DNA of 64,000 bases, from the NCBI GenBank assembly GCA_026120035.1, contig JALRME010000004.1, positions 62,001 to 126,000 on the forward strand, read 5' to 3'. The notes beneath the pieces are model-generated. The model ran no database searches and was not told the origin of the DNA. It was given only the letters and a program-made list of their open reading frames with translations. Position 1 is the stretch's first letter. The number at the start of each line of letters is the position of its first letter. Positions 1 through 52,621 of the stretch are shown piece by piece. A program made the position numbers and the translations under genes. The DNA comes from Coleophoma eucalyptorum (Eukaryota; Ascomycota; Leotiomycetes; Helotiales; Dermateaceae).

Positions 1-3000
1 TGGACAGTTTTCGGCTGCATTTCTGAGCTTATACCCAAGAGTGACAGGGACAGTTTAAGATATTCTATCCCAATTGTCGTGAACAGTTGGTTGCCCTCTA
101 GCGCATTTGACTGGTATGGAGCAGATTTGTCGTTTGTAAGGAAATCTTTCACTGTTCGATGGAGGAGATGAAGGCCTCCAGTCTCAGTAGTTGTCTCGAG
201 ATCCGAGTCAAGGACGATAGTGCCGACAGCAGTTGAGATTCTAGTCCATGCCTTTACCTCGATAAACCCGCCACAGTGGCTCATCATATACTGCTCGATG
301 ACTTTCAGATTGGAAATCGGTCTCCGATTTTTATTTAAATCCGTCTCGTTTGTCTCCATCTTACCCCTCAAGCTCAGAACCAGATCTGCATCTTGGAATT
401 CGCGAGTGTTCAGCGCTCGCTCTGTAAACGAAACCAGCTTCAGCCAATGCTTCCCGAGCTCAACATCCGCCTCGCTAGCAGCTGTAAGTCGTTGGATGAT
501 AATAGCGTAGAGGTCCTCAATGTTGGCCTGCGGTTTGTCCAGTTCTTGCATCATTGCATTTGGCGTCAGTCCTCGGAGAAGCAGACTCTGAACCTGTTTC
601 AACACCAAGGACACCCAGATGATTACACCCTCTGCATGTTCGATCAGGATATCCCGAAGCCGTTCGATATCAAAATTGGCCCTCTCCATTCTGTCCAGTC
701 TGCCGACTTGTTGGCGAATCTGGATCAGACCTGCTGCAATGATCTTGTCAATATCTGTTGCATTTTCATCTTGCAGTATAATCTTATGACGTTCTTCGAC
801 ATTGCCTACGATTTCCCCATTTGGCCGACTTGCAATGATGACTTTGACAACGATGCCCTCTATTTTCGCGTGGCATGCATCATTGATTAGTGACAGAATT
901 TTGGTCCGGGCAGGATCATTCTCGGACTCATCCATTGCATCTATAAAGAGATATAGCTGTCGCGGGAAGGATTTCAGGCTAATGAGCTTCTCAAATATTG
1001 GCAAGAGATGCTTAAATGACCACGAATCTTCCTCCTCATCAGCAGGATCACGAGCCTTTCGACTCTTTTTTGCCGGCTTGTTTCGTTGTGTACGATACGT
1101 CTGCCGAAACAGTTTAAACAGTCTGACATCTTGCTTGACGATCTGAAAGAGAAGTGAGCGTAGCATTTTCGTATGACTGGCCTCCTTCTCCTCACCCGGG
1201 AATGTTTGAAAGCGATAGAAGAAGCTCCCAACAATCGGCCGGTTCTCATCAGAATGATCAGTCTCAGCGAAAACCTTAGCCCCAATCCCAACAGAGAATG
1301 ACGATACTCGTCCAAGCATGTCAGCGAGATCCTGAAGTTGATACTTTTGGAGAAGTTGCTTCAAAGTGGCGAGGAGTAATGTAGATTTACCACTCCCAGC
1401 TTTTCCTACCAGCCATATGATGCTGCTGTGTGGACTTTTGTCCCATTCAACATACTTCGGGTGTTTCAGCATCCAGTCCCCAGTATACTGCTCCGCAGGA
1501 TCAATTGTCTCCTGTCTAGAATTATACGCTTCGACACTAAGAGACTGCAAGCATTCATTATATTCCGTCATAGGATCGAGAAATGGGAGTCCGCTGAAAG
1601 CTGCTCGAATCGGTGCATAAGGGAGACTTGTTACGAAAACCCTCATGTTTTTGATATTGGAATCGCACAATAGGCGCAGATTCTCCACGAACAAATTCCG
1701 GTCTTCTTCTGGATGGATTTGTTCCAGACTTTCTATCACGAGGCGCACATTCGTATCCGGCTCAGAAGAGATCATACTCCCGAGAGTCTTCCTCGCATCT
1801 TCCCTGCTTAGCACTTGCGTGGTGTCAAGTAGATTCAGAAACTTGTCATGTTGAGCCGTTGGCAAATTTTGAAGCCGAGTTATCATGATATCTGCCAAAA
1901 TATAACGCAAGATGTGATCTGTCGTGTTGAAGCAGACTTGTTTTGCGTCAGGTGTGGGGGCAAAATCGCTGCAAAACACGCGAATGTTCTGCGTCTTACC
2001 AAGATGTGTTGCTTTGATAACCTGTCGTACAATTTCGTCGGATGTGTTCTCAACCAGCTGAGGTCGTTTAACGAGCCAAAGAAATTGAGACTGAGTGCCG
2101 TTCGGCGATTGCCATTCATGCAGCTCAGCTTTTTCAGAAAGCCATTCATCAAAAGTATGATCTCCAGTATTTGATTCCAGCATTCCCACTCGGAGGGACT
2201 TTACAGGTTCACAAATTGTTTTGCACAGTATTTCGATTTCTATATACAGAAAGTCAGCTATACATAAGAAATCACTTCCCCATTGTAATGATAGATATTC
2301 CACAACAACAAAGTGACTTTTTTTTCTTCTTTTTATTTTTTAACAAAATCACATACCTCCATACCTCGGGAATCGCTTTTTAATCACGCCTGGAGCCTGT
2401 TTAATAAGCTTATCAAGTTGGCGTGACAAGTCTATGTAGTCCTGATCTCTTTTGTGCTTGAACTTGACCATCCCTGAGTGATCGGCATGAATAGGGTGCT
2501 GATCACAAAGGTTTTCGTTCCGAGAAATATTGGTTGCAGATGCCTGAGTTACCAGAAGCATTTCATGGCCGGTCCTACTCAGATTACCTAGGAAATTGAC
2601 CTATAGGGAAATTATTAACCCCTAGTGCCCATGATATTTGAATAATACCTACCTTTACTGTTCTCGTGCTCAATCTTTCATAGTAAGATATCACAGGTGA
2701 GTCATCAAACAGGAAAGACTCCAGAAACGATCGGTTGAGGCTCTTGAGGTAATCCGAGGGCTCGGTATCGTTGTCCATAACCAGAGACGTGATGAGGGCA
2801 TAATTCGGCTGTCCCTTGAGCAGAGTTACCAGTTGTTCCTGTCGGATTCCCAGGTTTGGAACACCGAAGAAGATCAATGAATAGCAAGATTTACACAACT
2901 CTGCGTTCTCATTGCTTCCGATATGCGAAGTCTGATTGACCGGCCTCCCTGCAATTACCAACGCTTCTTTAACCAGCAGCCCACCTAAACTATGTGCAAT

Positions 3001-3787
3001 GAATATTATTGGTCTTCTCTTCTCCTACAGATTATTAGTATTCGGTTTCAGGGGCATTAGTAGTAGCCCGAACCTTCTCCTCAGTTCGCGAGCTTTTCAA
3101 CGCTTCCAAAAGTCCCATTGCAAGATCATGGATGGAGCTTTTCGACCTGCTCCGCACAAGAGTGGTATCATAGCCATAAGTGAGAATACGAGCGTTGACT
3201 TTGTTATCTGGAAGGTAGTCGCGTATCCAGACATCTGATTCACCAGGTGATTTCCACGATCCGATCGCGTGGCCCGCAAGGCCCGTGACGGCAACAATAT
3301 CCACAGCGGGATCAGGCGGATAGTAGAGCGTGGTGAGTCCATAGAAGTGGTTGTCAAAGATAACTTCCGTTTCTCGAGCAGCAATTAAAAGTCGGACTCG
3401 AAACTCCGAGGACGCCCTTTTCAGCTTGATGGGCGTCTGCCAGAACGTGACCGTTGCAACGGGGTTGTTAGACGAGCTTTCCGTGAAGGAAAACTGCCGG
3501 ATATTCGAAGTCTTTGGAGAGAGATCATTATGGGCTTTGGTAGCGTGGTATGGAAGTGCTTCTAAGCTGTTCCGTACTTCCTCGTCCATGACATAGCTAG
3601 GTATACCACTTATTCGCCACGTCTGGACTTTAGGCCTGCGCTCGAGTCGCTGCATCCCAAAGAGGAAAAAAAGAATGCTCCCGAATAATAGAGTCAGTAA
3701 GAGAGGTGTCCCCGACTCTAGAAGACCTGTCCTAACGAGCGGCATTGAGGAGGGGTCACTAGCCGTTGCCTGGTCGGTTTGTGCCAT
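1..3787 (-). CDS. NLR-like protein: membrane anchor, alpha/beta hydrolase, degenerate NACHT, intact NACHT (C-terminus beyond window)
   Basis: Four-exon model: 3787-3074, 3024-2653, 2600-2357 and 2257 to the left edge, still open; introns 49, 52 and 99 nt, all in phase. At least 1195 residues. A hydrophobic segment (about 29-44) may anchor it. Residues about 160-360 are a SERAC1/SesB-type alpha/beta hydrolase with nucleophile elbow AHSLGG (Ser250). Residues about 480-650 read like a NACHT module but have no Walker A (KRPQLVENTS stands at its place, about 505) and a weak Walker B (VIESLEQ, about 615). Residues about 690 on are an intact NACHT: Walker A GKAGSGKS (728-735), Walker B YLFIDAMDES (about 880). 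Such proteins are fungal NLRs linked to self/non-self recognition and cell death. The sensor repeats usually found C-terminally would lie outside the window. The first donor (GTTCGG) is unusual, so that junction is less certain. Confidence 0.85.
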
Positions 3788-4786
3788 CTTGACTGCTCAG
3801 TCAGTTAATCAACTCGGCTCTAAGTATCCCGTCGTGATCGTCAATATCGACAGGATGGGGCTTTGCCTGATCCCAAACAAGAGTTGGATCACACCATAAG
3901 GCTGCGTGGGGTTTCTATCATGAGCTTGGCCCGATAAAGCTGATCGGGTTTTCAGCTGTCCAGCCGTACGCCAACATTCGCTTGGTGCCAGCCACTGGTC
4001 ATGTGACTTTACAGTGGAACAGATGCACCAGCAAGAACTTGGTGACATTAACGAGCTGAGTGTCTATTTCTGTAAAGTTTTTATCCCTGCATTTGACAGC
4101 TTGACGCTGTGCCTCTAGTGCCGGAGTTTTGCAGTGCAGTACTGTACAATAGCTCATAATCCCGGGGCGGATCGGCGCGGATCAGCAATAGAGCCTCACA
4201 AAGGAGCGGCGCGTTGATATTTGCTAAGCAAGTTAAAAACAGGTAAGTTTAGCTCGTTGGTGTGGGGTACAACCAGCGAGACAACGACTAATAAATCTGA
4301 TTTTACTCCAGGAATGCCTCTTGGTGACTCTCTAAAAAAGATCCATAGCTTAGATCTGGTTAAAGAGAGTTCCAGTAGATATTCGAATGCAACTGGGACA
4401 TTGGGAATGCTCAAATGCTGTAACTGCTGAGCGCGATCATAATTCCCGAGGTGTTGGTCAAGTCTAGATCATTCCTTTTATCTCTTTTCACAGGCGTGGC
4501 TGGCGTGGCTGAGAAGAGGGACTGTGATTTGAACACCAGAATCACAAAATCACCAATCGTTCGGCCAAGTTTTTGATAGGCGCCCCCTGCTCCTTCAGAA
4601 CCCTCTCCTACATATTCACTCCTGCCAGCTGCCCCTCAACTTGTGGACAAACTTCACTTCAATCTCGTCTTCGTACAAACCGATTCCTATTTTTTGCACA
4701 ACGCTGTCGTTCTGAATAAAGTGACACGTTTCGTCCAATTCTAGACTTGTTCTTTCGCTTCTCCAATCTACTACTAAATAAGTTCA
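3788..4786. other. intergenic region between divergent genes
   Basis: About 1 kb upstream of both the minus-strand NLR and the plus-strand small membrane protein, so it should hold both promoters. The last 200 bases are pyrimidine-rich, common just upstream of fungal start codons. No coding signal or repeat is recognisable. Confidence 0.5.
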
Positions 4787-5584: not shown

Positions 5585-7204
5585 AGTTGACACTCAAAGA
5601 TAGGGAAGAAGAGGCCGCGTGGAAGATATAACAAACATTCCAAGCACCATTTTCTAATTAATTTATCAAGGTTTATTAAGGTGACACATATGAATAGGTT
5701 GATTGATTGGTAAAGTGTCGTTATATCATTTTTGAATTCATTTGGCGTGCCACTGTCGCAATCCAGTTTAATATTAAAATTACACAAAAACATAAAAACA
5801 TAAAAACAGTCAGTCAAGCTCTTAGTCGCGAAGACCCACTGTTGGAATACCTCTCATTTCAGCTGTATCAATAACAGTCAAAATGCGTGAGGTAAAATGT
5901 GTATATTTTTCTCTGTTCTAAGTGAGTGTGATGGAGGTCTTATCAATACCTTCATCTGTTTGTAGAACAACCAGAATAGGTATCGATTCATCCTCCGTTC
6001 GTAATGCTACGTAATGTAGGCATCGATCCGACCTCTTGTTCGTAGTACTACGAACGAGTGTTCGATCGAGGTCGAGATCAAGATCCAATAATGATATACC
6101 GACACCCACAATAGATAGATATTTCTTCTGTATAGTAAGTTGCTATCGCAAGCTTCTAAATATGATCGTCGAATTTACCATTAAGAATGTGTTAGAACAT
6201 CGCCCAATTTTGAATACGATGCAGCAATACTTCATACAAGTAAAGCCCGAATCAGATGATACAAAGCAGTGAGAATCTATTTCATAATATTTGTTATATT
6301 TAATAGGTAAGTCACAATAGTAGTAACAGTAGTAGTAATAGTGGTAGTTATAGTGGTAGGTAATTGTTAATTAAACGTGTATAAAACAATTAAAAGTGGT
6401 ACTTATTCTGTGAGACGGTTAACGAGGCCCACCTTTCAGCGTCCAGCATGTGCGCAGATTCAGCGAGGCTTTATATAGGCTGTGTTACGCTACTTTCAAG
6501 CAATTATATTTATGCTGGCTACTGCGGAGGTCGTGGTGCTAGCGAACCTATTCCTGCGGCTCGCCTATTCCGTCATCTATCGACAATCGAGAGTCCAGAT
6601 CAATGGGCGGATGCCTACTTGATGACAGCGGCGTATCGTGTCGCCTCGGAGCAGCAGCACCAACTAGGAAGACCAGTGCCTTGCCGGAGCCAGTGCCTAG
6701 TACCAAAACTACCTGTTCTGCTGACCGTGGACCTAAAACTGCTAGAATCCCCTCCCGCTAACCAGGAACGCGGAATTACAAATCAAGGGAACTATACAAC
6801 TTACCAGCCACGGAGAGCAGGTCAGCCTCAGAATATGCTCCTCTCTTACGAAATTGACCCCGCTTCGACTCATCTAGCATGCGGAGTGATAATGTCTCTG
6901 AATTCCCTCGTGGCCGCAAGAGTCGACCAATCTATATAAACTTGGAGAGATCTAATGTATAGTTATACGCTGATTTATACGTAAGTGACTGCCCATGGAT
7001 ACCCCGGACAGCTGTAAAGTGTACTAGCACTGATATTTTTATATCGCCAGAGTAGTCCAGGAAAGTCCAAAGGGCTATTGTGAGCTAGAATGATGCTTCT
7101 GGGAGACGTAAGTCTTCGCGTAAACTTGTTAGCTATTACTATACAATTATTAATAGAGAGTCTTCTACCTAAAATTATCTCATGGTAGCGTTGAATCCAA
7201 GTCT
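5585..7204. other. AT-rich non-coding stretch
   Basis: Simple-sequence tracts (AAAACAT units near 5787, a palindrome around TCGTAGTACTACGA near 6040, a GTA/TAG microsatellite) and many stops in all frames. One 163-codon open frame at 6448-6939 resembles no family I know and is not called. Confidence 0.5.
6309..6361. repeat. imperfect trinucleotide microsatellite (TAG/GTA units)
   Basis: A run of TAGTAG/TAGTGG units about 50 bases long in non-coding DNA, directly visible. Confidence 0.8.
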
Positions 7205-9706: not shown

Positions 9707-11026
9707 CTAAAGCTGCTCGGTTTCAATATCGTATACAAGGGGCTTCTGCCCGATACCCAGCTTCTGCATGTTACAAGAATTATAAACGCCCAATCCTGCA
9801 GTAATAGCAAGCTCGTTCACTCGCAGGCGCCATGCCCCTGTCTTCTTGCGGACATTTCCATTTCGCTCTGCAGCTTCATATATCTCCTTGATCCTGGGTC
9901 GCCTCTTCTCGTCATATTTCTGGAACACTTGTTCTAGTGAGAGGGAAGGATGGTCAAGTAAACGGGAGAGCAAGAACACATCTTCCATCGCCATAGAGAC
10001 TCCCTGGCTAGCATGAGGTGGCATTGCGTGGGCTGCATCTCCAAGTATCAAACAGCGTCCTTTGTGCCATCTTCGACTAAGAGGAAGCCTGAAAATGGGG
10101 TAGAACTTGACCACTTGAGTTTTATCAATAACCCCCCTGAGTATCTCCCCCCACGATCCTTTCACATCATCTAGAACGCCGAGTATTGAGTTCTTGAAAC
10201 TGTCGACTTCCTTTTTCCGATGTTCTTCCCAGCCGTCTCGAGAGTTGCCAGACGTGGGAGCAGGAACTTCGCGGGAAAAGAACCAATACACTCCGTCACC
10301 GGATTTAGTACAGGATGTGACTGCAAAGAGCCCATCGCCTGTCAAAGTCGCGTTAAGTCCGTTGAAAGTGGCCGAAGATACGCTTAGTTCGGAGGATGGG
10401 ATAAGAGAGAACATATTTGATATGCCTGTATATTCGGGTATAACGTCGGGATCCACAAATAGGCTTCGAACACTAGAGTGAATACCGTCGCAGCCAAGTA
10501 ACATGTCGGCTGTATCGGTGGTCCCGTCAGCAAAAGTAGCTGTCACTTCCTGGCCATGCTCGTTGATGCTGGAGAGAGATTTTCCATAATTCACAACAAT
10601 TCCTCTTTGTTCTGCTTCCTCAAGAAAGACGGCCATCAGATCGGCTCTCTTAATTCTTAAATAGCCAAACCCCGTTTTCTCATTACTCCACGATACCATA
10701 TCCATTTGGCCTAGGTCATGGCCTCTTACTGAATGCAACACAAGGTTGGTGGCAGACGATCCCCGAGCTACAAGCTTTTCGTAAATCCCAAGACGGGATA
10801 GAAGTCTTAAACCATTTGGAGGGATGCCAAGTGCGCCTCCAAGAGTCGTAGGCTCATCGCGTACCTCATATACTATAGGCATGATGCGATTTGTCATTTT
10901 CAAAAGCATCGCCATTGCCAGTCCGGTTGGGCCTCCACCTATAATGATGACCTATGGTCCAAAAGTCAGCACTTTGACTGCAATTCCGACAGGCAGGATG
11001 AAGCTTACCCTCTTTACTTCGTTCAT
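9707..11026 (-). CDS. FAD-dependent monooxygenase (PHBH-fold)
   Basis: Exon 1 (11026-11009) encodes MNEVKR; after a 57-nt intron (11008-10952, GTAAGC...CATAG) exon 2 runs 10951-9707; 420 residues. All signatures of class A flavoprotein hydroxylases are present: dinucleotide-binding GGGPTG (11-16), the DG motif in GCDGIHSSVR (about 160) and the GD motif in LGDAAHAMPPHASQG (about 310). Such enzymes use NAD(P)H and O2 to hydroxylate or epoxidise aromatic or polyketide substrates; the substrate cannot be read from sequence. No signal peptide, so presumably cytosolic. It lies head-to-head with a Zn2Cys6 regulator (start 12361) that could control it. Confidence 0.92.
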
Positions 11027-12360
11027 TATACTTTAGGTATCGGTTTTAGATACAGCAGCTCCACCACAGACGTACTAAAAGCTAGTATCGTGATAGTTTA
11101 CGAGTGAGGGGGAAAGAGACGCGTCAAGCTGTGAGTGTTGAAGAGCTGGATGAGTCTTGTAGTTTTCTTAAATAGAATGATTTGATTTCAGTTGCAACGG
11201 GCAGCACATGCTTCTATATACTCCTCAGGAAGAACTTCTCAGTTTTGATTTTCCACGTGATCCCTTCAAAACCACCAAGCCAGTGTACAGCATCGGGAAT
11301 TCTGGTCTGCCGCCACTCGTGTAATGGATCTGGTAAACTTTAATCCAGACCATCGCACAGTGCAGCCAAAGCGTGTCAAAGCAAATGACAATTATGCTCA
11401 TAGAGAAAGCAGCCCTTCATTTCTTTCCTACAGTATGATACAAGTGGACAACTGTCTACTTTGGAGGTCAATCCTAGCTCACCCGAAAACCGACGATTTA
11501 ATATCTCGGGTTTCGGTACTATAGGGAAGTCTGTGCCGAACTTCTCAATCCGAGACGCCACAGATACTACTCTAGAGGGGGTTTGCAGTCAAGACCCGAA
11601 GGGTTTCAACGGCAAGCCTTCAGAACCCCTTCTTATCTACAGCTTTCACGTCTGATAATCGGGGCAGTTTTACACTCTTGAAATTGCACAACTCGGATCT
11701 CGGAGTTTACTTGTTGAACACAATTCGTTGGAGTAAGGTAAGCGGGTCGCAAGTACTCGCCGCTAAAATATGTCGACGAGATTGATTTCTGGGGTGATCT
11801 CAGGTGAGGTCAAATACGAATTATCATATCTACACACTAAATCATTAACTATACCGAGTTACGTCTTCTGAATAGTGCTTCGATCCAAAGCTCCAAATAC
11901 CAACTTCGCTGTCTTGAGTTTTTTGTTTTCTTAGCACGCTTTTCGATCAAAAATACCGTTCCCCTTCACCTATGCGCAAATTTTAGAGCTCTGGGCATGA
12001 AAAGTATTCCTGTGTATACCGCATCGCAAGCTATCTCTGCGGATCATTCCAAGCAGGTCGCAAAAATATATCGTGCGTGTTTCGGCCTCATTAGCGTTGA
12101 AATGGTAGAGCTATTAAGATCTTGTCACTCCCTTCAGCTCGTCAGCTAACTCTTTAAAACGTCCACAATCCTGAGGTTCAAAAACTCGACACATCAGCTC
12201 CAGTCTCGAGAAAGAGATAAAGACCTCTCAACCAGTCACACACGTTGATCTTACCGATCATATTTATATTACCCGGTGTACTTTGGGGGTTACTAGGTTC
12301 CCAATAGAAGTTGACGCTGTGGGTCTAGATCACGAAACTACCTGTTCACAATCAAGAGAT
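11027..12360. other. divergent promoter region between the monooxygenase and a regulator
   Basis: 1.3 kb without a credible gene. Being shared upstream DNA of two divergently transcribed genes, it probably holds both promoters. No specific operator could be picked out. Confidence 0.5.
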
Positions 12361-14115
12361 ATGGCCCGCAAGAAGGACTCAACCATGCCAACACCAGTCA
12401 AATATAACAACAGAATTAGTAATATCAAAGTAAAGACTGGGTGTATTACATGCAAGTATGATTTCGGAAGATTTATCTCTGGAGCTCGTCCTAATGTCAT
12501 TTCTTCCAGAAAACGTCGCATTAAATGTGGCGAGCAAAAACCGAGTTGCGTACAATGCGAACGAAGTCGACGCCAATGCGGTGGTTATGCGCCAATTACC
12601 AAGAGACGATCTATTATAGATAAGGTCCTCGACTTCAAAACCTCACCGATGAACGTTTGTACCATTATAACCGGCTTAATTACGCCAACAAATTATCCTC
12701 CATCTTCTCAGGAACTAAGGTCATTCGAGTACTTCTTGCGCAAGACAGCACCTGCTCTAGGTGGCTGGTTCGATGGTCTCTTCTGGTCCTTTCATTTACC
12801 ACAACTTTCACTAAGCGACATGGCTTTGCGGTATGCCATCATTGCAGTTGCAAGTATGCATGAACAAATGGAATTTACGGGAGATGCCATCGTTAACCAT
12901 TCTATCACGGATGGAACCGAGATGGAAAGAAAACGACTCTATGGTCTGAAGCAATATAATTATGCAATCGGAGTACTCGCTGAACAACTCTGCGATGGGA
13001 CGAGGCCAATCGAAGTGACCCTGGCCTGTTGCATACTACTTATATGCTTCGACTTACTGCGAGGCAACTTAAATACAGCCTTACTTCATTTGCAAAATGG
13101 TCTCCGCATAGCTAAGAGATGGCGAGAGGGTTCGACCACGATATCAGAGGATCTTCCGATACGTGACAACATCGTACGAATATTTGAACATCTTTCGTTT
13201 CAATTGAGTATAACTCAAAAGTCTCTCTCCCATTCGACACTTGCTATTCTGCCTTGGATTATCGACAGCGTAGACGAACCCGAATTCTTGACCTTCTTTA
13301 GTGCTAAGAATTCACTAGACTTGATATCAAGGGAAGCTTTCAAGTTTATCAAAACTGTAGATCAAATCAATCATGGTTCTTCTCTAACACCAGGAAGAAT
13401 AATTCTCGAGAAACAAAGACAAGATCATCGTGATAAACTCTTGTCTTGGGATCGGAAACTTCAGGCATTGCTTGCTAGAAACGCGGCCATAGTGAACGCG
13501 AAGATGCATATGACAGTAGACAGCATGAGAATACTCTACTTAGTATCGCTAATCTGGATCGAAACAATTCTTTCGGATACCGAAACTGCCTTCGATTCGC
13601 ATCTTGACAACTTTGAAGGTATTATCACAATCGCAGAGGCTATATCTGCGAAAGTAGTGGACAGAGTACTAAGTAGAAATCACGGATCTCGCTATTTCTC
13701 ATTGAATATGGGGATCCTTCCCTCAATATACTTTGTAGCTATCAAATGTCGCCATTATACCATTCGCCAACGGGCGCTCGCTCTTCTCAAGCTACTATCT
13801 CCACGAAAAGAAGGGCTGTGGAACTCTCAGATTCTAGCTTCCATTGCAACTCAAGTTATATACTTAGAGACTGGTTATCATGTGTCAATACAACAGACCA
13901 AGGGCTACGATTCCGATTATCCTGCGGAAGACAGAAGGGTCATAGATGTCATGGGAATGTCGAGAGATCTAATGAGCTCTGTTCACTTTGCACAGACGGA
14001 GGCTGATTTCTTGAATAATACATCGGATTCTAGGCAGCAGACTGTTGGGTTTATACGTCGACGCGCAGGGAAGAATGGGAAACTTGATATTAAATACTGT
14101 ATTATTACATGGTGA
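12361..14115 (+). CDS. Zn2Cys6 transcription factor (Fungal_trans_2-like)
   Basis: Exons 12361-12455 and 12510-14115; the 54-nt intron (GTATGA...TTCCAG) splits the zinc cluster, as often in this family. 566 residues. The spliced binuclear cluster is GCITCKKRRIKC followed by CVQCERSRRQC, Cys at 28, 31, 38, 45, 48 and 55 (C2-C6-C6-C2-C6). The remainder is alpha-helical and resembles the Fungal_trans_2 region, e.g. the helix around CCILLICFDLLRGN. The frame is open upstream of 12361 but has no earlier ATG. Expected role: nuclear DNA-binding regulator, possibly of the monooxygenase next door. Confidence 0.9.
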   Translation: MARKKDSTMPTPVKYNNRISNIKVKTGCITCKYDFGRFISGARPNVISSRKRRIKCGEQKPSCVQCERSRRQCGGYAPITKRRSIIDKVLDFKTSPMNVCTIITGLITPTNYPPSSQELRSFEYFLRKTAPALGGWFDGLFWSFHLPQLSLSDMALRYAIIAVASMHEQMEFTGDAIVNHSITDGTEMERKRLYGLKQYNYAIGVLAEQLCDGTRPIEVTLACCILLICFDLLRGNLNTALLHLQNGLRIAKRWREGSTTISEDLPIRDNIVRIFEHLSFQLSITQKSLSHSTLAILPWIIDSVDEPEFLTFFSAKNSLDLISREAFKFIKTVDQINHGSSLTPGRIILEKQRQDHRDKLLSWDRKLQALLARNAAIVNAKMHMTVDSMRILYLVSLIWIETILSDTETAFDSHLDNFEGIITIAEAISAKVVDRVLSRNHGSRYFSLNMGILPSIYFVAIKCRHYTIRQRALALLKLLSPRKEGLWNSQILASIATQVIYLETGYHVSIQQTKGYDSDYPAEDRRVIDVMGMSRDLMSSVHFAQTEADFLNNTSDSRQQTVGFIRRRAGKNGKLDIKYCIITW

Positions 14116-20791: not shown

Positions 20792-23700
20792 TCACCCCAA
20801 GAACGCCCTCAAATTTCTAAAACTCTTCTTCTTCATATTACCTGGATCCTGTGTCGTAGGTGGGGGCGCAAAAGCCATCGCAGACCCCATAGCTCCATTT
20901 CGTCCCCCGAACATGCCTGACATACCTACACCTATTGAGAGGAAACCTGAGCCTTGGGAAGACTGAGAAAGTGGAGATTGGTTGTGGGGGTTCTGGGGAT
21001 TGTAGGACTGTTGCTGTTGTTGATTGTATTGCTGGGGAAAAAGGATTTGTTGCTGTTGTTGCTGGGATTGACTGTAGGGCGAGGGAGTCAGTGGGGAATT
21101 GGATGAAATTGGGTATTGGCTTGGTTGTTGGTAGGGAGGTTGTTGGTGTTGGGGTAGTGGAGTGGGATTGAATTGTTCTTGCGGTTGATGAGGGGGATTG
21201 GTATATTGCTGAAGATGATGATTTTGTTGTGCATAGGATAGCGCAGGAGTTGTAGATGGATTTATCGATATTTGAGAGAATTGTAGTAGGGGAATATTTG
21301 GTTGTGTTGGTGGTAACACGGGTGTTGGTGGATCTCCATAAGTCTGTTGTTGAGATGGGTGAATTTGGAAGGAGTGCTGCGCTGCTTGATGGTAAGAGTA
21401 AGTTTGAAGACTAGGTTGAGCTGGTTGAGGTACTTGGCAGCTTTGAGGTGTTGGCTGCAATGGACAAAGTGTCTGGGTTGTCATGGTCTGTGGGATTGGT
21501 GTTGGCGTCGGTGAGATGCCATATGCAGCTCCTGTTTGGCTTCGTGACAGCCCTTGAGGTTGGGCAGGATTTGTCGTAGCTTCCGAGATGTGCATCTGCG
21601 GAGTATTCTGAGGTGATTTTGTGATTAAAGGAGGAATTGGCGCAGCAGGGGCGCTAGGTGGAGAGGCCGTAGAGAATACAGGCAATTCCTGAGGACCTGA
21701 CATAACGGGAATCGTCGTTGGTGTAGCCTGAACTTCAGAGGGTTTCTTATGAGGTACACTTGACTCTTGGGTGTCAAAACTCTGCTGCACATTGATCGTC
21801 GGGACTGATGATGGAAGTGACTTTTCATCAGTAGACTGGTATTGTGGATGACTTTGAGTGCTTGATGAAGACGTATACGGCGGTGGTGGAGGCAAGGTGT
21901 CAGATGTATATTGTGGCTGAATTGAGCCTAGCATAGAATCAGCCCTCTCACGATAAAATTGAGCTGGATGAGAAGCTGATGGGACTTGTATCGGTGGGCA
22001 ACTGTAAGACTGGCTCAGATTCTGATAGCTTGTGTTTTGGGTTGTACCTATTAGCTGCTGAGTTCCATAAGGCTGACCCGCATTGAAAGTTGGTTGATTT
22101 TGAGATTTACATGCATATGCAGCTTGAGTTTGATACATTGGCTGTTGGGCAGCATCAAAAGAGTTTCTCTTCACATCTGACTGTGGAACTTCATAACTAA
22201 AGTTGGCTTGTGCCATCGGCTGAGGATAGGGGTTTGGACTCGTGAAAGTAGATGAGGTAGAAGGTCGTCGCAGATGGTGTGGTTCTGTAGCTGCTTCTGT
22301 GGCCAATTGTGCAGCCGCAGCATTAGGATCTTCCTTTGGCTTCCATGGTACCTAAAATAATAAGTCAGTTAAAATTCCAGGAAATGACTGTTCAGAGTCG
22401 TGGTGGAATTTGAATTCAAGTAGGACAACATACATAGCCAGGCAGTCCAAAAGTATCCAATATTCTCAGCATCTCTCTCTGACTTTCCGCTCCTCCATTT
22501 TTGATACTCCTCAAAGTATCACTTGCAGTGAGCCCGTCCTTATTGATGACAAATTTATTCGCACCAAGCGACAACAACAACTCCACAATCTCAGGTTTGA
22601 AATTCCTCGTTGCAAGATGCAACGGTGTCTCTCCTTTATATGATTGGAGGTTGACATTGGATCCATATCTGCACAACATCCGCACAGTAGCCGCCATGCC
22701 ACCATAAGCTGCAAGATGCAGCGCCGTCTTTGTCTTCATCGTAGTAGTGTCGGCTGGCATCCCAAGCTGCAAATAAAATTCAACCACATCCGTCTTTCCC
22801 CTCGAGGCAGCGCAGTGAAATGGCACCCAACCAAAATGCGTCATTGCATATGGATCGGCGTTGTTCTCAAGAAGTAACTTGACGCATTCAAGTTGTCCAG
22901 TCCAGGACGATGCATGTAGTGGTGTCCAATTCTTGGTTGTTGTGGCCCGAACATTGGCATTATATTTCAAGAGCACTTTAATGACGGAAACATGACCGGG
23001 GAGCGCGGCTTCGTGAAGTGCTGTACCTTGCTCTCCCGTATCCTTTGTGATAAGTTTCCATTGGTCCCGGTCAATCGTAAACCCCTCACTCAGAGCACCA
23101 GCAAAATATTTGCCTGTCAACCCTATGGATTTAATGACCCCTACCGGCACAACCTCCTTACTAGATCAATGTTAGTCTACATGACCGAGGGAAACTCTAT
23201 GAGCGTATATCCATTGGACTTACTTGACAGGATAACCATTCTTCGCCAAATATTCCACAATTTTGTCTTGTCCCTTCCTAGCAGCCAACTCAAATATTGT
23301 TTCACCAGTGGCTTCCAATTTTGCACCCATACCATGAAGCAATATAAACATATCTAAATGTCCCATATCAGCCGCATAAGCTAAAGGTGTTGTCCCATGA
23401 TTATCTGTCTTCTCTAGCAATGCTTGATGTTGTCCCGTTTGAGCCAATTGCCTTGCAAGAAATGGCAGATTCAAATAACTTGCCATATGCAGTAAAGTGA
23501 AATATCTCGGTGTAAATGGCCCCCATTTTCCAGTTGTGGCTGGCCAGTATGTATGCCACCAACTTTTCCTAATCTTTGATTCTTTGGCGAAGAATGGTGA
23601 TGCGAGGTTGATTTCTGGACATCTTGCTGCTCTGATATGGTCTGGCCAGAACTCTACTGCGTATGGAAAAAGGGGGGATTGACCGACATGCTTGAAGTAC

Positions 23701-25818
23701 TTGTCTTCTCCGTCTGCGGGTAGAACGGAGCCCTTTGCGAGACATCCTTGTTCTAGGTATTGGAGGCAAAGAGCGGAGATTTCTCCATCAGTTTCTGCGA
23801 TATTTATGTAGAAATGGAATAGCGCTGGATTGGTCTTTACTAGACCGGTTTCATCTGTTAGGAGATCCTTCACAGAGTTATGGTTAACATGGATAGTGTC
23901 ATCTTCGACGGCCAACATGGAGCCACATGCTGCAATTCCTTGAAGAGTCAGTTGTATCGGATCGAACGACTGGAAATTCATAAGTTTCAGAGCTGTGGCG
24001 ACCTCTTGTACCAGTAAGGGTCGACGAGCTGCAAGTACCCATCGTAGAATAGCGATCACAAGTCCAACAAGGTTTGTTGGGATACTGGCAAGAGTGCGGC
24101 AGTATATCTCGTTGACGTTGGTGGGAAGGTGCTCAAGAGCTAGCTCAGCATCTTGTGGTTGATATCTCTTGATCTCTTCGATAGCAAGATCGACCCAAAG
24201 GAAGGTCCCATCTCCAAGATTGATAAGTCTGGTGACAAGGGCACGAAATATGTTCTCTGGTAAAGCCCTTTCAGTGATCAAGTCTCCTGCTCTCTCTTTA
24301 ATATAAATTGCTAGGGACTGGTTCTCATTCATCTCCTCCTCAATCTCTTCCTCAACGTATGTTTCCACCTCTTCAATGACCTTATCAAATACGTATGCAA
24401 TCTGAGATGTAATTTCTGGAAGGGTTTCGGGGATCTGTGTTGATTCAATGGAAGCATGATTGTCTATGTTCGCCACATCAGGCATTTTCCCTGGTAATAT
24501 AAACGTGGCCGAAACTGCTGGTGTCGAAGTTGTTGTTGCCGATGCCACGGAGAGAGGAGCTGGAGCCGTCGCACAATCCAAGTGACTTGCGGCAAAAGGT
24601 GTCGTTATGGCAGACTCTGAGACTGTGGCTGCTGAATAACCATGGTCCGTTGGAATGCCGGATGCAGTGACAGTGCTCTGTTGAACAGATAAGACATCTT
24701 GTGAAACAGCTGAAGGTACTTGTATCGAAATGGAGGATGGAGACCCTTCTGTCGTCGACACAGCTCCTCTCGTCTTTTCCTGACGTAAAGCTTCCCTAGC
24801 AAGACTCGCAAATTTCGTGGTCTTCACAGTCTTTACAGTCTTCTTCCTCGTGAGTTCTGGCTCGCCAGCCTTCTTCGCCACAGAATCCAATCTGATCCTT
24901 GGAAACTTCTCAAGCATCTCCAAAATACATTTTGGCGCTTCTCGACTGATCAACACCATCTGAAGTGATGCTCCCTCTGGCTGTTGCACCGCGGGACTCG
25001 TAGTCCTCCCGTTTCGCAATCCGTATTGTCTCTTTTCTTCCTCGTAGAAATCTGTGATGATATCGAGGAGGTGATAGAGCGAATTCTCACCACATTGGTC
25101 GATGCCGTCGATGATGCAATAGGTTTTACCTACGCTAGGATCGCGGGTCATCTTTTCGAAGGTCCTCCACAGGGATTCTAAAGAGTTCTGACTGAATAAA
25201 GCATCTCTTTGAGATTCGTACTCGGAAAGTAGAACTTTGAGTGCCTGGGGTCGCGCTTTGATGAGAAGAACCATAAGACCTCGAAGGACGGAAACTGCAT
25301 GATTCCGAGTATTGACCTTACTATCACAAAAATAGTAGAGGATAACGAAGTCCTCCGTCCCTTCAAGGTTTGCCTCGAGTTCCCTGATCAAGAAGAGCGC
25401 GAGCGGGGTCTTGCCCATTCCAGTTCCACCTGAAATCCAAAGCAATTGTGAATGTGTATATGATTCTTTCCAAGATTTGAAGCTTGTCGTATTAAGAATC
25501 CATTCAAATACTGAAGTCGTTATTTTCCGGCGTCTGCGTAACAGTCTGTCGATAAATTTTCGATCATCCAAGGGGTTTGTGATACCTTGGTGAAGTGCTG
25601 ATTTACACTTCTCCTCGGTGTCAGAGGCACCTCCTGCTAGGACTGAATCCAAATACTTTATGCTCAGAATTTCGGCATGACTTACCGAAATAGACACCAC
25701 CATAAAAAGCACCATTCGCCATATTACCACTATTGTTGTTATGATAAGCCGCAGATAGTTTCGCCTGGGCACCACTGAAGGCCCCCGAGCTAAACGTATT
25801 GAATGACTGCCTTGACAT
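20792..25818 (-). CDS. NLR receptor: N-terminal amyloid-type motif, NACHT, ankyrin repeats, Pro/Gln-rich tail
   Basis: Exons 25818-25686, 25636-23224, 23160-22434 and 22351-20792; introns 49, 63 and 82 nt with GTAAGT/GTATGT donors; about 1610 residues. The first exon encodes a Ser/Gly/Asn-rich segment with the motif NNSGNMANG (28-36) and then FYGGVYF, directly before the typical NLR linker (K-C-x-x-x-L, N-P-x-x-D). NACHT: Walker A GGTGMGKT (114-121), Walker B YCIIDGIDQC (about 217-226). After NACHT comes a low-complexity Ser/Thr/Ala stretch (about 330-440). Roughly eight ankyrin repeats (about 780-1085) include TALHEAALPGHV and TPLHLATRNFKPE. The last 510 residues are Pro/Gln/Ser-rich with a poly-Gln run, ending in a Gly/Met-rich patch and a basic end. 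Expected role: cytosolic sensor that oligomerises on ligand binding. Divergent from the hydrolase gene at 26637. Confidence 0.88.
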
Positions 25819-26636
25819 TGTGAGTTGATTACGTTTTGTGGCCAGCTGAGAAGAGCCGGCCTCGTCTGAGCGTATAAGTGAGCACTTCTCAGTAAGTCAC
25901 TGAAACTATAAGATCGCTCTCTATCGGAAGACAGCGACTTTGGGAAGATGGTTTAAATCACCAAGGAACAGAAAAAGATGTTGCAAAACGATAGAGAGCA
26001 GTTATCAAAGACTCCCTTCGCGCGATGGCGGAATGAGACTCGAGAGCACGCTCGAAACGGGCTGAGATTCAAGGGGTTGCGGGCAGCATGACCATCGACA
26101 AACCAAGCCTTAGAGTTCTAAAAAGTTCTAGGGTTGAAAACATACCAGCATGTGACAGCTATGTGCTACTCTAAACGTATTGCTCAATCGTACTATAGTG
26201 AATAATCGTCTAGGGCCCGACCCCTGATGTAGCATATGATACTTTTCATATCGCTCGACTTGAGCAAGCCACACTTTGCCATTTTTCAGGTGAGGCTGCT
26301 GAGAAACTTTAACTCTCTGTGCAAGGCACATTTTGCTTTTTTTCTCGGCTGAGGCTACTCAGAAACTCTAACTCCTGCACAAGACGCATTTTCCTTTTTC
26401 TCAGCTGAGACTACTGAGCGGCCTTTGGAGGGTCTAGACTTCTTGGATCGAGAGAGACAGAGTTCCCAACCCTCTCTCCATATTCCACCAAGTGACTCAT
26501 ATGTACGTTCTTAGGTCCTTTTGAGTAAGAAACTTACAGGACAAAACAACTTTGAGCGGTAACAAGCGAATACCGACACGACTCCGCAGACGGGAAGAAT
26601 CGGCGACTTGCGACATTAAATCCTTGATTGTTCACG
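25819..26636. other. bidirectional promoter region of the NLR/hydrolase pair
   Basis: 818 bases between the divergent starts of the NLR (25818) and the hydrolase (26637). It holds a tandem repeat (26268-26418). A shared promoter would keep the two genes co-expressed and co-inherited; that is inference from layout. Confidence 0.6.
26268..26418. repeat. imperfect tandem repeat, about 2.4 copies of a 60-65 bp unit
   Basis: Units begin near 26268, 26331 and 26393 (last one partial). Each has a T-rich tract, then CAG/CGG-CTGAGGCT, then AGAAACT-TAACTC and GCAAGRCRCATTTT. Copies differ by point changes and small gaps. It lies in the shared upstream region of the NLR and its partner hydrolase. Confidence 0.75.
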
Positions 26637-28367
26637 ATGTCGATGTTTCGACGTAAAGAGAAGGCTGTGGGCGAGATGGTGGTTAGATCTGAAAGTTCGG
26701 CCGGGAGAGCAACAGGGTCAGTCTCAATGTCAGTCAGGTCTCTCCAGTATTTCTAACTTACTATGTAGTGCTTCAACTCGTGGCATATACGGCCTAAAGA
26801 ACTGCTATGATCCAGAAGATGCGATTGCAGAGTGAGTCCTCAAAATTCCGAGGCCTCAAGCCGTCAGTCCGAAGAGTATATCTGACAACCTCCAAGCATA
26901 GTCTTCGTCCACGGTCTAACAGGGAATCGTGAATCAACCTGGATAGACAAAGACTCCGGTACATTTTGGCCAGCCCAGCTCCTCCCAAAAGACGTTCCGA
27001 AAGCCCGAATCATGACGTTCGGGTACGATGCAGACATCACCCATTTCTGGGCTATGCCCTCCCAGAATCGCATCGGAGACCACGCCTCAAATCTTGTTAA
27101 TTCGTTGGCGCAATTGAGGGAGAGAACGGAGACTGAAGATAGACCTACATTTTTCATAACTCATAGCTTGGGGGGTCTCGTTTTCGAAGATGCTATGCTG
27201 CTTTCGAAGAACAGCGCCGAAAAGCATATTCGAAGTCTAGTCGAATGCACAAATGGTGTTTGTTTCCTAGGGACACCACATTGTGGTACGTCTACTGCAA
27301 CTTGGGCAAGTATTTTTGGGGGCCTAATAAACACGGTTAAGACTACCAACGTCGATATATTAGATGTGCTACGATCGAATTCCCAAATTCTATCAAGGAT
27401 TTCGAGTCAATTCCACACTATGTTAAGAGGCAATAAAGACCAGGGGAGGGAGATGAAGATTACTTGCTTTTTCGAGGAGGTTCCTGTGAGAGGTGTTGGG
27501 GAGGTGAGTTTTAAGATGAGAGGGAAGTGGCGAGGTGTGTGTTGCTAACATGCTACTAGATTGTTCCGAAGTCCTCGTCGATTCTGCCTGGGTACAATCA
27601 TATAGGGATCCATGCGAACCATATGGATATGACCAAGTTCGCTAGCAACGAAGACCCAGGATATTTGAGTGTATCCACCGAGATTATGAGATGGATTCGA
27701 TCTGTCCAGAGTTCTCCGCAACAGGTTGCTAAAGTAGAACCGGTGGCCTCAACAGACTCGATGCCAAAATTCCATGCTACTGGAAAATTGGCCCCATCCC
27801 AAAACACGAGTACATGGGAGCCAGGATCACGGCCACGGAGTTTGACGCCGTCGAGATCGCTGACAAATAACCCGATATTTCATCCGGGGCCTCCAGAGCT
27901 CTGGCACGAACATAACCAAAGAGGCAATGCGGTACAAAGTCCTCCATTGCAGACACAGGCACCACACTACAACGAACATTTCCAAGGAAGAACATCAGCA
28001 AATGTCTACGTATGTTGTATCTAGCAATGAGATAAAACAATAGCAGCTAAAATTTCAGTGTTTGCAGACTCCTAAAGAATATTCCAGCCCCTCCCAGTCT
28101 CAGCAAGCAGATCAACAATGTGTCCAGTCTTCTAGAAATTATCAAGGACATTCATACGAGGAATTTCGACAGGCTGAGCAACCGTCTCAAGCAGAGTATT
28201 CTGATCAGCAATACCCGCCTCCCTGTCCAGAACAAGTGCCACAACTCCATTCTCAGCCACAAGTTTCATCTATAGCAGTACAGCAAGGCAGTCCGAAATT
28301 TTACAACTATAACAATACTGGAAAGATGGTGAATGGTAGTGTATTCAACGGAAATGTAACATTCTAG
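26637..28367 (+). CDS. SesB-like alpha/beta hydrolase with C-terminal amyloid-type motif
   Basis: Exons 26637-26716, 26769-26831, 26897-27503, 27560-28009 and 28059-28367; introns 49-65 nt in phase; about 502 residues. The splice at 26832-26896 is set by restoring DIVFVHGLTGNRESTW (from residue 48). The domain continues with RIMTFGYDAD and nucleophile elbow THSLGG (Ser138), then FLGTPHCG. These are hallmarks of the SesB/SERAC1-type serine hydrolases found as effectors in fungal NLR clusters. A Pro/Gln/Ser-rich linker (about 300-475) leads to a C-terminal 23-residue segment containing NNTGKMVNG (485-493), which matches NNSGNMANG in the adjacent NLR. Intron 1 has an alternative in-frame GTCAGT donor and the last exon an alternative acceptor at 28067. 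Proposed role: effector activated by NLR-templated amyloid. Confidence 0.87.
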
Positions 28368-29731
28368 AGTTAGAATAAATAGCGACTTCAATATTAAAAC
28401 CACTAACATTAGCAGCCTCTAATTATAGTATAATTAGGGTTTTCCCTGCCGGGCTGGGTGGGACAAGGGTTCTACTTGAGGCTTTGTACAACACTATTAA
28501 TGATCTCTTGCTCATTAATAGGTTTAAAATTGCGGAGTAAGGTTGCAGAAGTATAGTGTATTCGCGCCTGGCTTTTGGATATAATATTTACGCTACCTTC
28601 TGACAATTTCTGTCTGTATACAAGAACTGGATACTAGGAAAGATTGCGCAAAGCTGCATCGTGCAATTTCCGCCTTAGCCATAGTTCTAACGAGGGACGT
28701 AGTCCTTTAGCATTGTATTGAGCATTGACGTGACTTTTACGCCCAAAGCAACAGACAGAAAGGTTTATATCTTCCGAGCTAGACTATGAAAGCGTTCGAG
28801 GCAGACTGCTTCCTGATAATGGCGTTATAACACGCCTGCATACAATTTGCAGACATGGTTAGGTGACCCGCAATCATTTAGTATTTCGAACCATCGTTGC
28901 CCTGAGCCCCCCCCCCCCCCCGTCACATATGAAATGAAGGGGTCATTTGACTCAGGGTGATCAGCGCATGCGAATGTTGTGCAACGAGCGATTGAAAAGA
29001 GGCATGGCTTGCCGTGGCATTTCTTGGCTGTTCTAGCTGATTGGAAGCCCTCTTGTCGTTAGTAGGGGTGGCTTTCAGCTGGATGCATTTTCTCTGGGCG
29101 AGCATGACGGTTGCGTGGGTTGAGGTAAAGGGTAGGTAGTTCAGATGCTAAATTAGTAATTCATTTTACCAGTCCTTTCTTCGGCCCCTTCTTTCGTTGG
29201 TCTATCATTTCGGCGCTTCGATCCCTATAGATCTTAACCCAGCCTAATAATATAATAAGTTACTTACCATTAGAACTTAAGACAAAAGTACTCTAGTGGA
29301 AGGGAACAGGTTTGATCAAAGGCAGGATAGTGGTGTTTCGGAGCACAATAACCTTATTTTGACTAAATTCTATAGATCTCGTACGAAGGACACAAAAACT
29401 ATAGGAAAAAAAAATTATATGAAGGGATAGCGATATAACGAAATGTAATCTTGGCATGGCGAGTGCGGTCCGTGCCAAAATATTCACATGTGGACGGCTG
29501 AAACCTCCTGGACATAGCATCCCTGCCCTGGCCCCTTTTGGACGTCTGATTTATGCCATGAGCTCAAATCAGGTGACTCGGCCTCATTACAATACCAACT
29601 CAAATCCCACTATAACATAACTAAAGACGAGCTAAGAAGGAGGTATTGATCGTAACTAAATGTCTGAAATTGACTTAGGTAGTAGGCTGTCGGTTTCGTG
29701 AAGGATTCTGTAGGTATCGAAACTACATAGC
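28368..29731. other. gene-free stretch
   Basis: No coding or RNA signal recognised. Contains a 15-base C run (28907-28921). Confidence 0.5.
28907..28921. repeat. homopolymer run of 15 C
   Basis: Directly visible. Homopolymer length is prone to sequencing error. Confidence 0.9.
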
Positions 29732-32018: not shown

Positions 32019-33252
32019 TCATGCATCACACTCGTCGTCAGCGCTTGTAGTAGCAGCAGCTGACGTTGCCGCGGCTGTAGTTGTCGCAGCAGCCTCAGTG
32101 GCGACAGCAACAGAAGATGCCGCAGCTGTAGTGGCAACAGCTGATGATGCTGCGGCCGTAGTCGTAGCAGCAACAGCAGATGATACCGCGGCAGTAGTCG
32201 TGGCAGCAGCAGCAGATGATGCCGCGGCCGTAGTGGCGGCAGCCGAAGATGCAGCAGCAGTGCCTGAAGCCTCAGCAGTACCATCCTCAGCCACACACAT
32301 GCCATAGTAAGTTTGACCGTCGAGGTTGGCCTTGTGGGAGGTGCAGGCACCGGGCCAGGTAACTTCACCGGCGGCAGTGTAGTTGGTAGGGATGGGGTAG
32401 TAGATATCGATGATCAGACCAGCCTCATAACCAGTGTATTGACCAGGGATACTCGTGACAGGGCTGGGGCTGCCAGCACCGGATCCGGTGACGGACAGCT
32501 GAGCACAACCGATGTAGAATTGGGCACCACCATATGCCTCAGCAGCGTGGAGAGCGACGTGCTCGGCGCGCATAAGGTAGTTTCCGGAGGGAAGGTCCGT
32601 GGGAAGATCGATCGTGAAGTTCTGGATACCACTGCTGCCGGAAGGGTAGGTCGCCCACTGAATACCCTCGGAGTTGATCTCGGAGTAGGTTAGCTCGTAC
32701 ACCTTGAACCTATACAGAAATTAGAGGTCAATTATAACAATATTTCGAAAATCTAGTTTAATCGGAACTTCCTTGATAGACTAGAAAGGATGAGAGTAGA
32801 GATGAGGCTTGACGTACCAGTCACCAGATCCGTCATACGCATTGGCTTCAGTTCCATCAGGAGCCTTGGACATCCAAACGGAAAGAGGACCGGGGTGAGA
32901 GATGGCAGCATTAACGGTAAAGCCAACGTTGTCACCAGGGGCGACAGTGTAAGTCGAGGTCTTGGCCATTGTGGCGGCGTCTGTCAGATAAATCACCTGT
33001 TAGTTGATATTCGCCAGAGTGTAAACGAATTTACGAAGACACTGTGAACATACCCAGACCACCAGAGTTGCAGATCATGTTCTGGGACGTAATGTCTGTG
33101 ATGGGAGAATTCGAGTTGTTCGTTTGACGAACATACTCGTAGGCATCGGTAATGTTGCCATTTACAATCAGTGCCTCGAAGTTGTAATGAGCGAAAGCAG
33201 TTGGCAACAAAGCCGCCGCAGCTATGAGGGTGGAAGCGATGGTGGAACGCAT
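32019..33252 (-). CDS. AA9 lytic polysaccharide monooxygenase
   Basis: Exons 33252-33054, 32980-32818 and 32709-32019; introns 73 and 108 nt; 350 residues. The signal peptide (1-21) ends ALLPTAFA and leaves His22 at the mature N-terminus (HYNFEALIVNG), the first ligand of the copper histidine brace. The second is His95 in SHPGP. The outer-sphere residues of the family are also there: RAEHVALH (His171) and QFYIGC (Gln184, Tyr186). The enzyme would oxidatively cleave cellulose or related glucans outside the cell. No CBM1. From about 257 the chain is an Ala/Thr/Ser-rich repeat tail of some 85 residues, likely O-glycosylated, ending DDECDA. Formerly called GH61. Confidence 0.93.
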
Positions 33253-52535: not shown

Positions 52536-52621
52536 GGATCAATCCTGCAACCAACATAGAAGTCTTAAGCAGTGAACAAAGTATCTAGACCTTTCCTTAT
52601 CTCTAAACACAGTCAATTGCA

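Follow-up and report, generated by a model that had tools for sequence, protein, structure and literature searches.

In the sesA/sesB/het-eN locus of Nectria haematococca, a SesB hydrolase adjoins a NACHT-ankyrin NOD-like receptor (NLR), and a common motif is found at the N-terminus of the receptor and at the C-terminus of the effector (PMC3321046). The receptor copy of this sigma motif, in which GxGxQFNxx and GGTQNINT are repeated three times, sits behind an intron in the 5' region and was missed in the first annotation of het-eN (PMC3321046). A SesB-type putative lipase is likewise among the effectors of the PP system (HELLP, SBP lipase and the NLR PNT1; PMC3321046, PMC5485727), whose motif follows the pattern FxGx(x)NxGLQLxGxNxGxL (PMC3321046). 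An NLR and an adjacent effector with a common terminal motif also define HET-S/NWD2 and the HRAM class (PMC9815663), and the same logic is described for two recent Ascomycota families, PUASM (PMC9815663) and GDQN (PMC12261475), with PNP_UDP or SesA effectors. In ascomycetes, SesB hydrolases are reported to rank with the most abundant classes of NLR effector (PMC9815663). Here, we analyze a divergent NLR and SesB-like hydrolase gene pair in a 64-kb stretch of Coleophoma eucalyptorum DNA, referred to as the window (G000:C46:62001-126000; assembly of 45.3 Mb in 101 contigs). The pair is probably a two-gene, in-trans NLR-effector module for amyloid signaling, with an apparently undescribed motif family that is tied to one SesB clade.

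The gene pair and its two termini

Gene models were obtained by joining open reading frames via GT-AG introns, and rest on frame, splice signals and homology. The NLR and the hydrolase are transcribed divergently, with start codons 818 bp apart (Table 1). From the N-terminus, the NLR comprises the motif, a NACHT/NPHP3_N domain (residues 88-247), ankyrin repeats and a Q/P-rich tail. In a Pfam run covering its first 1106 residues, no match is listed upstream of residue 88, and thus no recognized N-terminal effector domain. A winged helix is marginally sub-threshold (26.5 against a cut-off of 27), and PF05729 scores 18.1 bits, under its own cut-off. Exon 1 has 44 codons and its junction with exon 2 yields the order motif-F, seven residues, EEKC. 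Since the Stachybotrys ortholog P0127 (motif-F, seven residues, EEEC) has the same motif-to-EExC spacing, intron 1 is backed by homology. The end of the NLR is also conserved: FAPPP...QKKKS..LGGLL or a variant is seen by eye at or near the C-terminus of 10 of the 17 homologous NLRs compared, and a strict version of the KKKS pattern matches five sequences, the window NLR included. Our guess is that this end might be a basic anchor or docking site.

Table 1. Positions of the described features in the window
Feature	Position	Strand	Evidence or detail
NLR gene, 1610 residues, 4 exons	20792..25818	-	Gene model, Pfam; exons 25818-25686, 25636-23224, 23160-22434, 22351-20792
NLR-side motif YHNNNSGNMANGAFYGGVYF, residues 25-44, exon 1	25687..25746	-	
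49-nt intron linking the motif exon with the NACHT exon	25637..25685	-	Homology to P0127
NACHT/NPHP3_N nucleotide-binding domain, Walker A GGTGMGKT	25029..25508	-	PF24883, 104.9 bits
NLR exon 3, bulk of the ankyrin repeats	22434..23160	-	PF12796, 143.9 bits
NLR exon 4, Q/P-rich low-complexity tail	20792..22351	-	Last 500 residues: 16% Q, 16% P
Conserved NLR C-terminus FAPPP...KKKS..NL, also present in homologous NLRs	20795..20872	-	
Intergenic region between both start codons, 818 bp	25819..26636		
SesB-like alpha/beta hydrolase, 506 residues, 5 exons	26637..28367	+	Gene model, DUF676, predicted fold of P0001; exons 26637-26728, 26769-26831, 26897-27503, 27560-28009, 28059-28367
Nucleophile elbow HSLGG with Ser142	27162..27176	+	Putative partners Glu245, His275
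Hydrolase-side motif PKFYNYNNTGKMVNGSVFNGNVTF, residues 483-506, after a low-complexity linker of ~180 residues	28293..28364	+	
FAD-binding monooxygenase-like frame	9710-10951	-	
Zn2Cys6 transcription factor	12175-14112	+	
AA9 lytic polysaccharide monooxygenase	32022-32720	-	
Mannitol dehydrogenase	52607-54142	+	
Dienelactone hydrolase	57635-58450	+	

The hydrolase matches DUF676 (PF05057) with 23.3 bits against a cut-off of 20.3. Among aligned relatives, the nucleophile Ser and the His are conserved in 39 of 39 and the candidate acid Glu in 38, the other one showing a gap; the window hydrolase itself carries the HSLGG Ser and the His. AlphaFold2 was run on the listed protein P0001, which is 83% identical to the window hydrolase, with 38 relatives. 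The model has a mean predicted local distance difference test score (pLDDT) of 66.3 and a predicted TM-score of 0.61, with a mostly high-confidence alpha/beta hydrolase core and a linker tail mostly below a pLDDT of 50. A fold search of the PDB with this model retrieved generic alpha/beta hydrolases only (best E 2e-9), including thioesterases and monoglyceride lipase, with TM-scores by target of 0.43-0.60 in the top ten rows. The predicted fold, the Ser nucleophile elbow and the His are those expected of a SesB-like hydrolase. As the C-terminal motif is modeled at a pLDDT of ~36-49, we make no structural claim for it.

The terminal segments YNYNNTGKMVNGSVFNGNVTF of the hydrolase and YHNNNSGNMANGAFYGGVYF of the NLR align with 11 of 21 columns identical and one gap. 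The original prediction had described an alignment of about this length, counting 8 identities. It had located NNSGNMANG at NLR residues 28-36, as in our gene model, and NNTGKMVNG at hydrolase residues 485-493, as the very end of the protein. The latter motif is present, at residues 489-497 of 506, and is followed by SVFNGNVTF, which aligns with the NLR as well. The local alignment of the two termini scores 51; 4 of 20,000 double shuffles do as well, and so do 2 of 20,000 when the NLR side alone is shuffled. When 312 segments of the NLR and 237 of the hydrolase are compared, the two termini form the highest-scoring pair, the next scores being 26 and 29. The motifs consist of 23-25% Asn, 12-23% Gly and 21-23% aromatic residues, with 0-8% charged residues.

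Recurrence and covariation in related fungi

A search seeded with the hydrolase gave 1,007 proteins; among the best 120, which were listed, the closest named relative is a partial protein from Amylocarpus encephaloides (71%). With the NLR, one search returned 40 proteins and a second gave the best 120 of 618, both scoring only the ~8,000 candidates with the most shared words; a Hyaloscypha finlandica protein (61%) is the closest named relative among the matches listed. Many of the nearest hydrolases share the C-terminal motif, for example those of Parascedosporium (GSIVTGTVNNYAGSKMVQGNNFQGPVNF), Fusarium nematophilum (GNVVTGTINNHTGGKIISGNNFQSTVNF) and Cercophora (NNVISGPIYGNGKILQGTFGNVSL). At the N-terminus of orthologous NLRs, the motif is found in Lomentospora (GSVITGTVNNHGLHMSGNHFSGPVNI), Parascedosporium (GSVITGTVNNHGLYLSGNNFNGPVNL), F. 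nematophilum (GNTTTGTLHNRGISLSGNNFQGNVFF) and Stachybotrys (GNRIAGALHNHGVALQGNNIQGAVVF). This side of the family is drawn from relatives with annotated N-termini; the three closest orthologs (P0121, P0122 and P0123) begin internally, and their N-terminus is not visible. Versions of one motif, roughly GNxIxGxxxNxGxxxxGNxFxGxVxF, are C-terminal in related hydrolases and N-terminal in related NACHT-ankyrin NLRs. By eye, the window appears to hold a divergent version, in which both partners have lost the first half (I/VxG).

The two genes recur together in relatives. In nine further species, the contigs recorded for the hydrolase and for the NLR are identical in length (compared by eye), and in three of these (Cercophora, F. 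nematophilum and F. falciforme) the two locus tags are consecutive. Both termini are legible in Parascedosporium, Cercophora and Immersiella, across two assemblies in F. nematophilum and across two species in Colletotrichum; several of the nine pairs miss one terminus through partial or doubtful annotation.

When 115 hydrolase domains are placed on a tree, that of the window falls into a clade of 20 rows (97/96), 13 of them labeled as motif-bearing. The nine paired species are found among the 19 non-window rows of this clade. For the remaining ten rows, no NLR partner on an equal-sized contig is found among the matches listed, which does not imply its absence. Among the unlabeled rows, P0002 and P0004 are partial, P0011 is narrowly under the threshold and P0015 is without the motif; the C-termini of P0008, P0012 and P0018 are read as mis-annotated, P0008 retaining GGNVVSGTVHNYGGGK.

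Profiles were built from nine hydrolase C-termini (H), eleven NLR N-termini (N) or both (HN), with the window sequences and P0001 left out. When 2,698 six-frame fragments of the window are ranked, each of the three profiles places the hydrolase C-terminus first (16.5 bits with H), and 0, 35 and 1 of 20,000 shuffles of its own composition equal it with H, N and HN, respectively. NLR exon 1 ranks 6th with N and 27th with HN. Compared with orthologous N-termini, the window NLR beats 99% of 5,000 shuffles for three of 15 (P0162, P0165 and P0168, equaled by 1, 1 and 0 shuffles; NSGNLFQGRFEGG against NSGNMANGAFYGG), while for P0126, P0181 and P0187 the majority of shuffles align as well. Taken together, the profile ranks, shuffles and ortholog alignments indicate that the hydrolase is a clear member of the family and the NLR a divergent one.

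From 121 hydrolase rows, we set aside 32 as fused or tail-less and retained 89 with a judgeable tail. The score and shuffle criteria are passed by 22 of these, nine of which had trained the profile; outside the training set, 13 of 80 pass, the window hydrolase and P0001 included. Some of the 13, such as P0093, resemble other motif types by eye, and P0025 fails even though it is very similar to P0024, which passes. A pattern derived from the family occurs at 24 places in 271 proteins: nine start within the first 70 residues, 13 end within the last 20 and two lie elsewhere. Although the pattern itself is circular, this applies less to the positions.

These data bear on the possibility that the window similarity arose by chance between two low-complexity, Asn/Gly-rich termini. 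Both termini are indeed compositionally biased and the NLR motif is weak on the hydrolase-side profile, yet few composition shuffles do as well, and the same kind of motif occupies the same two termini in other species. Because orthologs carry it at both ends, chance is disfavored and, in our estimate, highly improbable; the shuffles, the profile ranks and the motif in hydrolases outside the training set led us to reject it.

Covariation between partners was assessed on six pairs. Of 720 permutations, 2 do at least as well as the cognate assignment, which is counted among them, and with five pairs 2 of 120 do so; in a lineage-grouped test, 12 of 720 permutations do equally well. The own partner is best in five of six columns. 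Among 151 listed NLR N-termini, the window hydrolase has its best match in its own neighbor (53; next 41), and the window NLR scores higher with the hydrolase P0068 (58) than with its own (53).

Several observations weigh against the interpretation of the pair as an in-trans module of this motif family. The 2/720 figure relies on one cross-assembly and one cross-species pair, and the four strict same-contig pairs with both termini legible give 2 of 24 permutations. Along the rows of the same matrix, only two of six hydrolases prefer their own NLR. The window NLR is 59th on the H profile, with 0.4 bits, and its motif is equaled by 1,575 (H), 159 (N) and 652 (HN) of 20,000 shuffles. For only seven of the 15 orthologous N-termini does it beat 95% of shuffles, and its summed score of 576 barely tops the best of 3,000 shuffles (575). 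The motif label is scattered over the hydrolase tree, requiring 16 changes, at least 14 of them forced; as few are seen in 1 of 500 shuffles, and the scatter stems partly from partial or doubtful C-termini. With 16 changes over the whole tree, a single origin of the motif is not established. Finally, the Parascedosporium, Fusarium and Colletotrichum partners differ by two residues in the core, a difference in motif length that strict in-register templating would need to accommodate.

The original prediction was to fail if relatives kept the domains but showed no covarying motif. A matching motif is present in them, and covariation species by species is only partly shown. Pairing across relatives is well supported by these comparisons; strict covariation of the partner motifs is tentative.

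The two-residue length differences in some lineages speak for a rival reading, in which the motif is a non-amyloid docking element, acting by ordinary beta-augmentation or as a linear motif, and the NLR binds the hydrolase stoichiometrically, to recruit it or hold it back. A single short copy is seen per protein, and conservation would be equally expected of a docking pair. Against this, the Asn/Gly/aromatic composition, the position at protein ends and the layout of the gene pair fit established fungal amyloid-signaling pairs, and like-with-like motifs on both partners would favor homotypic assembly. We regard docking as unlikely.

Relation to described motifs and proposed mechanism

To place the motif among described classes, 23 motif peptides and the window proteins were compared with PF17046 (PP), PF17106 (sigma) and PF11558 (HET-s) at a limit of E 10, where HMMER filters drop most matches above E ~0.1. 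None of the three is listed for any peptide or window protein, and none of the 23 peptides contains a published pattern of PP, sigma, PUASM or GDQN. The suggestion that the motif resembles the sigma class is not borne out: the GxGxQFNxx and GGTQNINT repeats and a PF17106 match are missing. PF17106 finds the one sigma-bearing SesB protein tried, P0115, at 19.4 bits, under the cut-off, and the new profiles score its sigma stretch as noise, with 1,816, 1,239 and 1,869 of 2,000 shuffles equaling it. The window pair has the SesB hydrolase beside a NACHT-ankyrin NLR in common with the sigma locus but, unlike it, has one unrepeated motif and no SesA match on its contig; the four SesA matches of the genome are all on other contigs. 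The alternative offered in the same prediction, a variant of its own, agrees better with the searches of both termini, in which the motif looks distinct from the tested Pfam models and patterns.

Membership of the HET-s and PUASM classes was rejected on similar grounds. In contrast to HET-S and HRAM, the effector is a DUF676 hydrolase rather than a HeLo protein, the motif is single and neither terminus matches PF11558. The PUASM pattern FxGxGxQxxGxGxF and the GDQN pattern GxGDQN are absent from the 23 peptides, and the effector is a hydrolase instead of the PNP_UDP or SesA proteins described for these families. At the 1% level, one or more of the three new profiles recognize 9 of 12 relatives outside the training set; P0069, P0075, P0181 and a SesB paralog on contig C6 fail this test.

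By eye, PP is the nearest known class. An Asn-Gly pseudo-palindrome (NHGLSLxGN) is seen in NLR-side orthologs, the motif is of similar length, and ITGTVNNHGLHMSGNHFSG (P0124) and SGTLHNHGLSLTGNSFQG (P0167), both on the NLR side, resemble the published PP pattern. A loose h-Q-h-G core occurs in 2 of 23 peptides. Together with the SesB homologs known as PP effectors, this leaves some room for a divergent PP (RHIM-type) motif in place of a separate family. However, the family motif lacks the central Gln (no LQL core), and PF17046, for which the HMMER filters would drop most weak matches, retrieves none of the 23 peptides, yet gives 26.2 bits for the PP stretch in P0079. The new profiles score this stretch, our single PP example, like shuffles (263, 630 and 707 of 2,000 equal it), and the strict PP pattern is absent from all 23 peptides, though also from P0079. 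We rejected PP membership on the pattern and the Pfam model, and hold divergence from PP to be a possible but rather doubtful origin of the motif.

Within Pezizomycotina, the motif family appears common to a single SesB clade and the NLRs paired with it; by the tests made, it is distinct from sigma, HET-s and PUASM. We lean slightly toward a further amyloid-signaling family beside HRAM, PP, sigma, PUASM and GDQN: a Gln-less, PP-like, insulated line across several Pezizomycotina classes, with other SesB C-terminal types awaiting their receptors. No published name for the motif was found in the portions of the fungal amyloid-signaling literature searched, including PMC12258605 and PMC12881547. 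On the effector side, the search described in PMC9815663 covers PP, sigma, HRAM and PNP_UDP-linked families; among NLR N-termini, its text describes an unassigned Ascomycota class, NLR34, with no neighboring effector. Compared by text only, our motif could correspond to NLR34 or to one of the 22 paired motifs of that study.

In its sequence features, the window pair has the makings of a fungal NLR-effector pair, as predicted for a signaling unit: an NLR without an effector domain, an adjacent SesB-like hydrolase with a common terminal motif, and a pairing conserved in relatives. Because related fungi keep both the pairing and the tag, the receptor probably switches the hydrolase on by passing a protein fold. 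As the steps beyond motif sharing are drawn by analogy with HET-S/NWD2 and ses/het-eN (PMC3321046, PMC5485727, PMC9815663), we infer them as follows. A trigger would presumably be sensed by ligand binding to the ankyrin repeats, and the receptor would then oligomerize via NACHT, clustering its N-terminal motifs. These Asn/Gly/aromatic segments of 20-27 residues would most likely take an amyloid-like beta fold and template the C-terminal motif on the long low-complexity tail of the hydrolase. Gathered into filaments, the enzyme would thereby be activated, probably acting on lipid or other ester substrates; the likely outcome would be cell death or arrested growth. Support for a role of SesB in cell death is described as indirect (PMC9815663).

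Genome context and implications

A DNA pattern approximating N-[ST]-G-x-M-x-N-G has four matches in the genome, two of which are the window pair; the reversed control has two. Other genome matches to the first 255 residues of the NLR are at most 39% identical, and the motif profiles detect no further copy in the 46 sequence sources searched (best other match 9.1 bits). A second motif pair, which may still exist, was not found among eleven of 38 SesB-like matches (on contigs C6, C46, C55, C17, C13, C80, C45, C37 and C61) inspected by eye in three frames, C17 being barely covered. The C55 locus was considered as a second pair and rejected: by eye, it holds a patatin-like and a SesB-like gene, each leading into a P-loop domain.

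Other SesB relatives end differently. On C6 (L010/L029, ~6072-7200), the C-terminus of one reads GNFNTGGGPLYTGTQNAGRDLINGSLSTGSR. By eye, this is another Asn/Gly-rich type, shared with P0072 and P0104 from Penicillium; the first 5.2 kb of this contig were only skimmed for a receptor. Several distinct Asn/Gly C-termini are seen among the SesB-like proteins P0040-P0118, such as IHGDV..VNGGQVI.GG, QGGS...VSGGSL.QGN and SGRNVISG.Q.TGGT.NF, which may be further signaling motifs.

At window positions 1-3850, on the minus strand and ~22 kb from the in-trans pair, a SesB-like hydrolase stretch is followed by a same-strand P-loop NTPase (GKAGSGKS). This looks like a putative NLR of in-cis (fused) architecture; its hydrolase frame has no Pfam match. 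The adjoining L078 (G000:C46:55800-61999) holds, by eye, an NLR-like gene with an ankyrin frame, a P-loop and an 835-residue TPR-like frame, ending in HIGNTYGDSRVSFE; this end matches HET-s at 19.9 bits, short of the cut-off (32.2). Shortly downstream of the hydrolase, a run of 15 C occupies positions 28907-28921. Table 1 includes further neighboring genes.

Over the whole genome, the best matches to sigma (13.3 bits, cut-off 27.6) and PP (15.5 bits, cut-off 23.2) are below threshold, and no HET-s match exceeds its Pfam cut-off. Since no match to these three classes passes, the window pair may be one of the main in-trans lines of this genome. If our interpretation is correct, an apparently undescribed SesB-linked motif family would join the few fungal amyloid-signaling classes. 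It would offer peptide pairs for probing the insulation of parallel NLR lines within one cytoplasm, and would allow one to ask whether a PP/RHIM-like fold works without the central glutamine. It would also provide a handle on what activated SesB hydrolases do.

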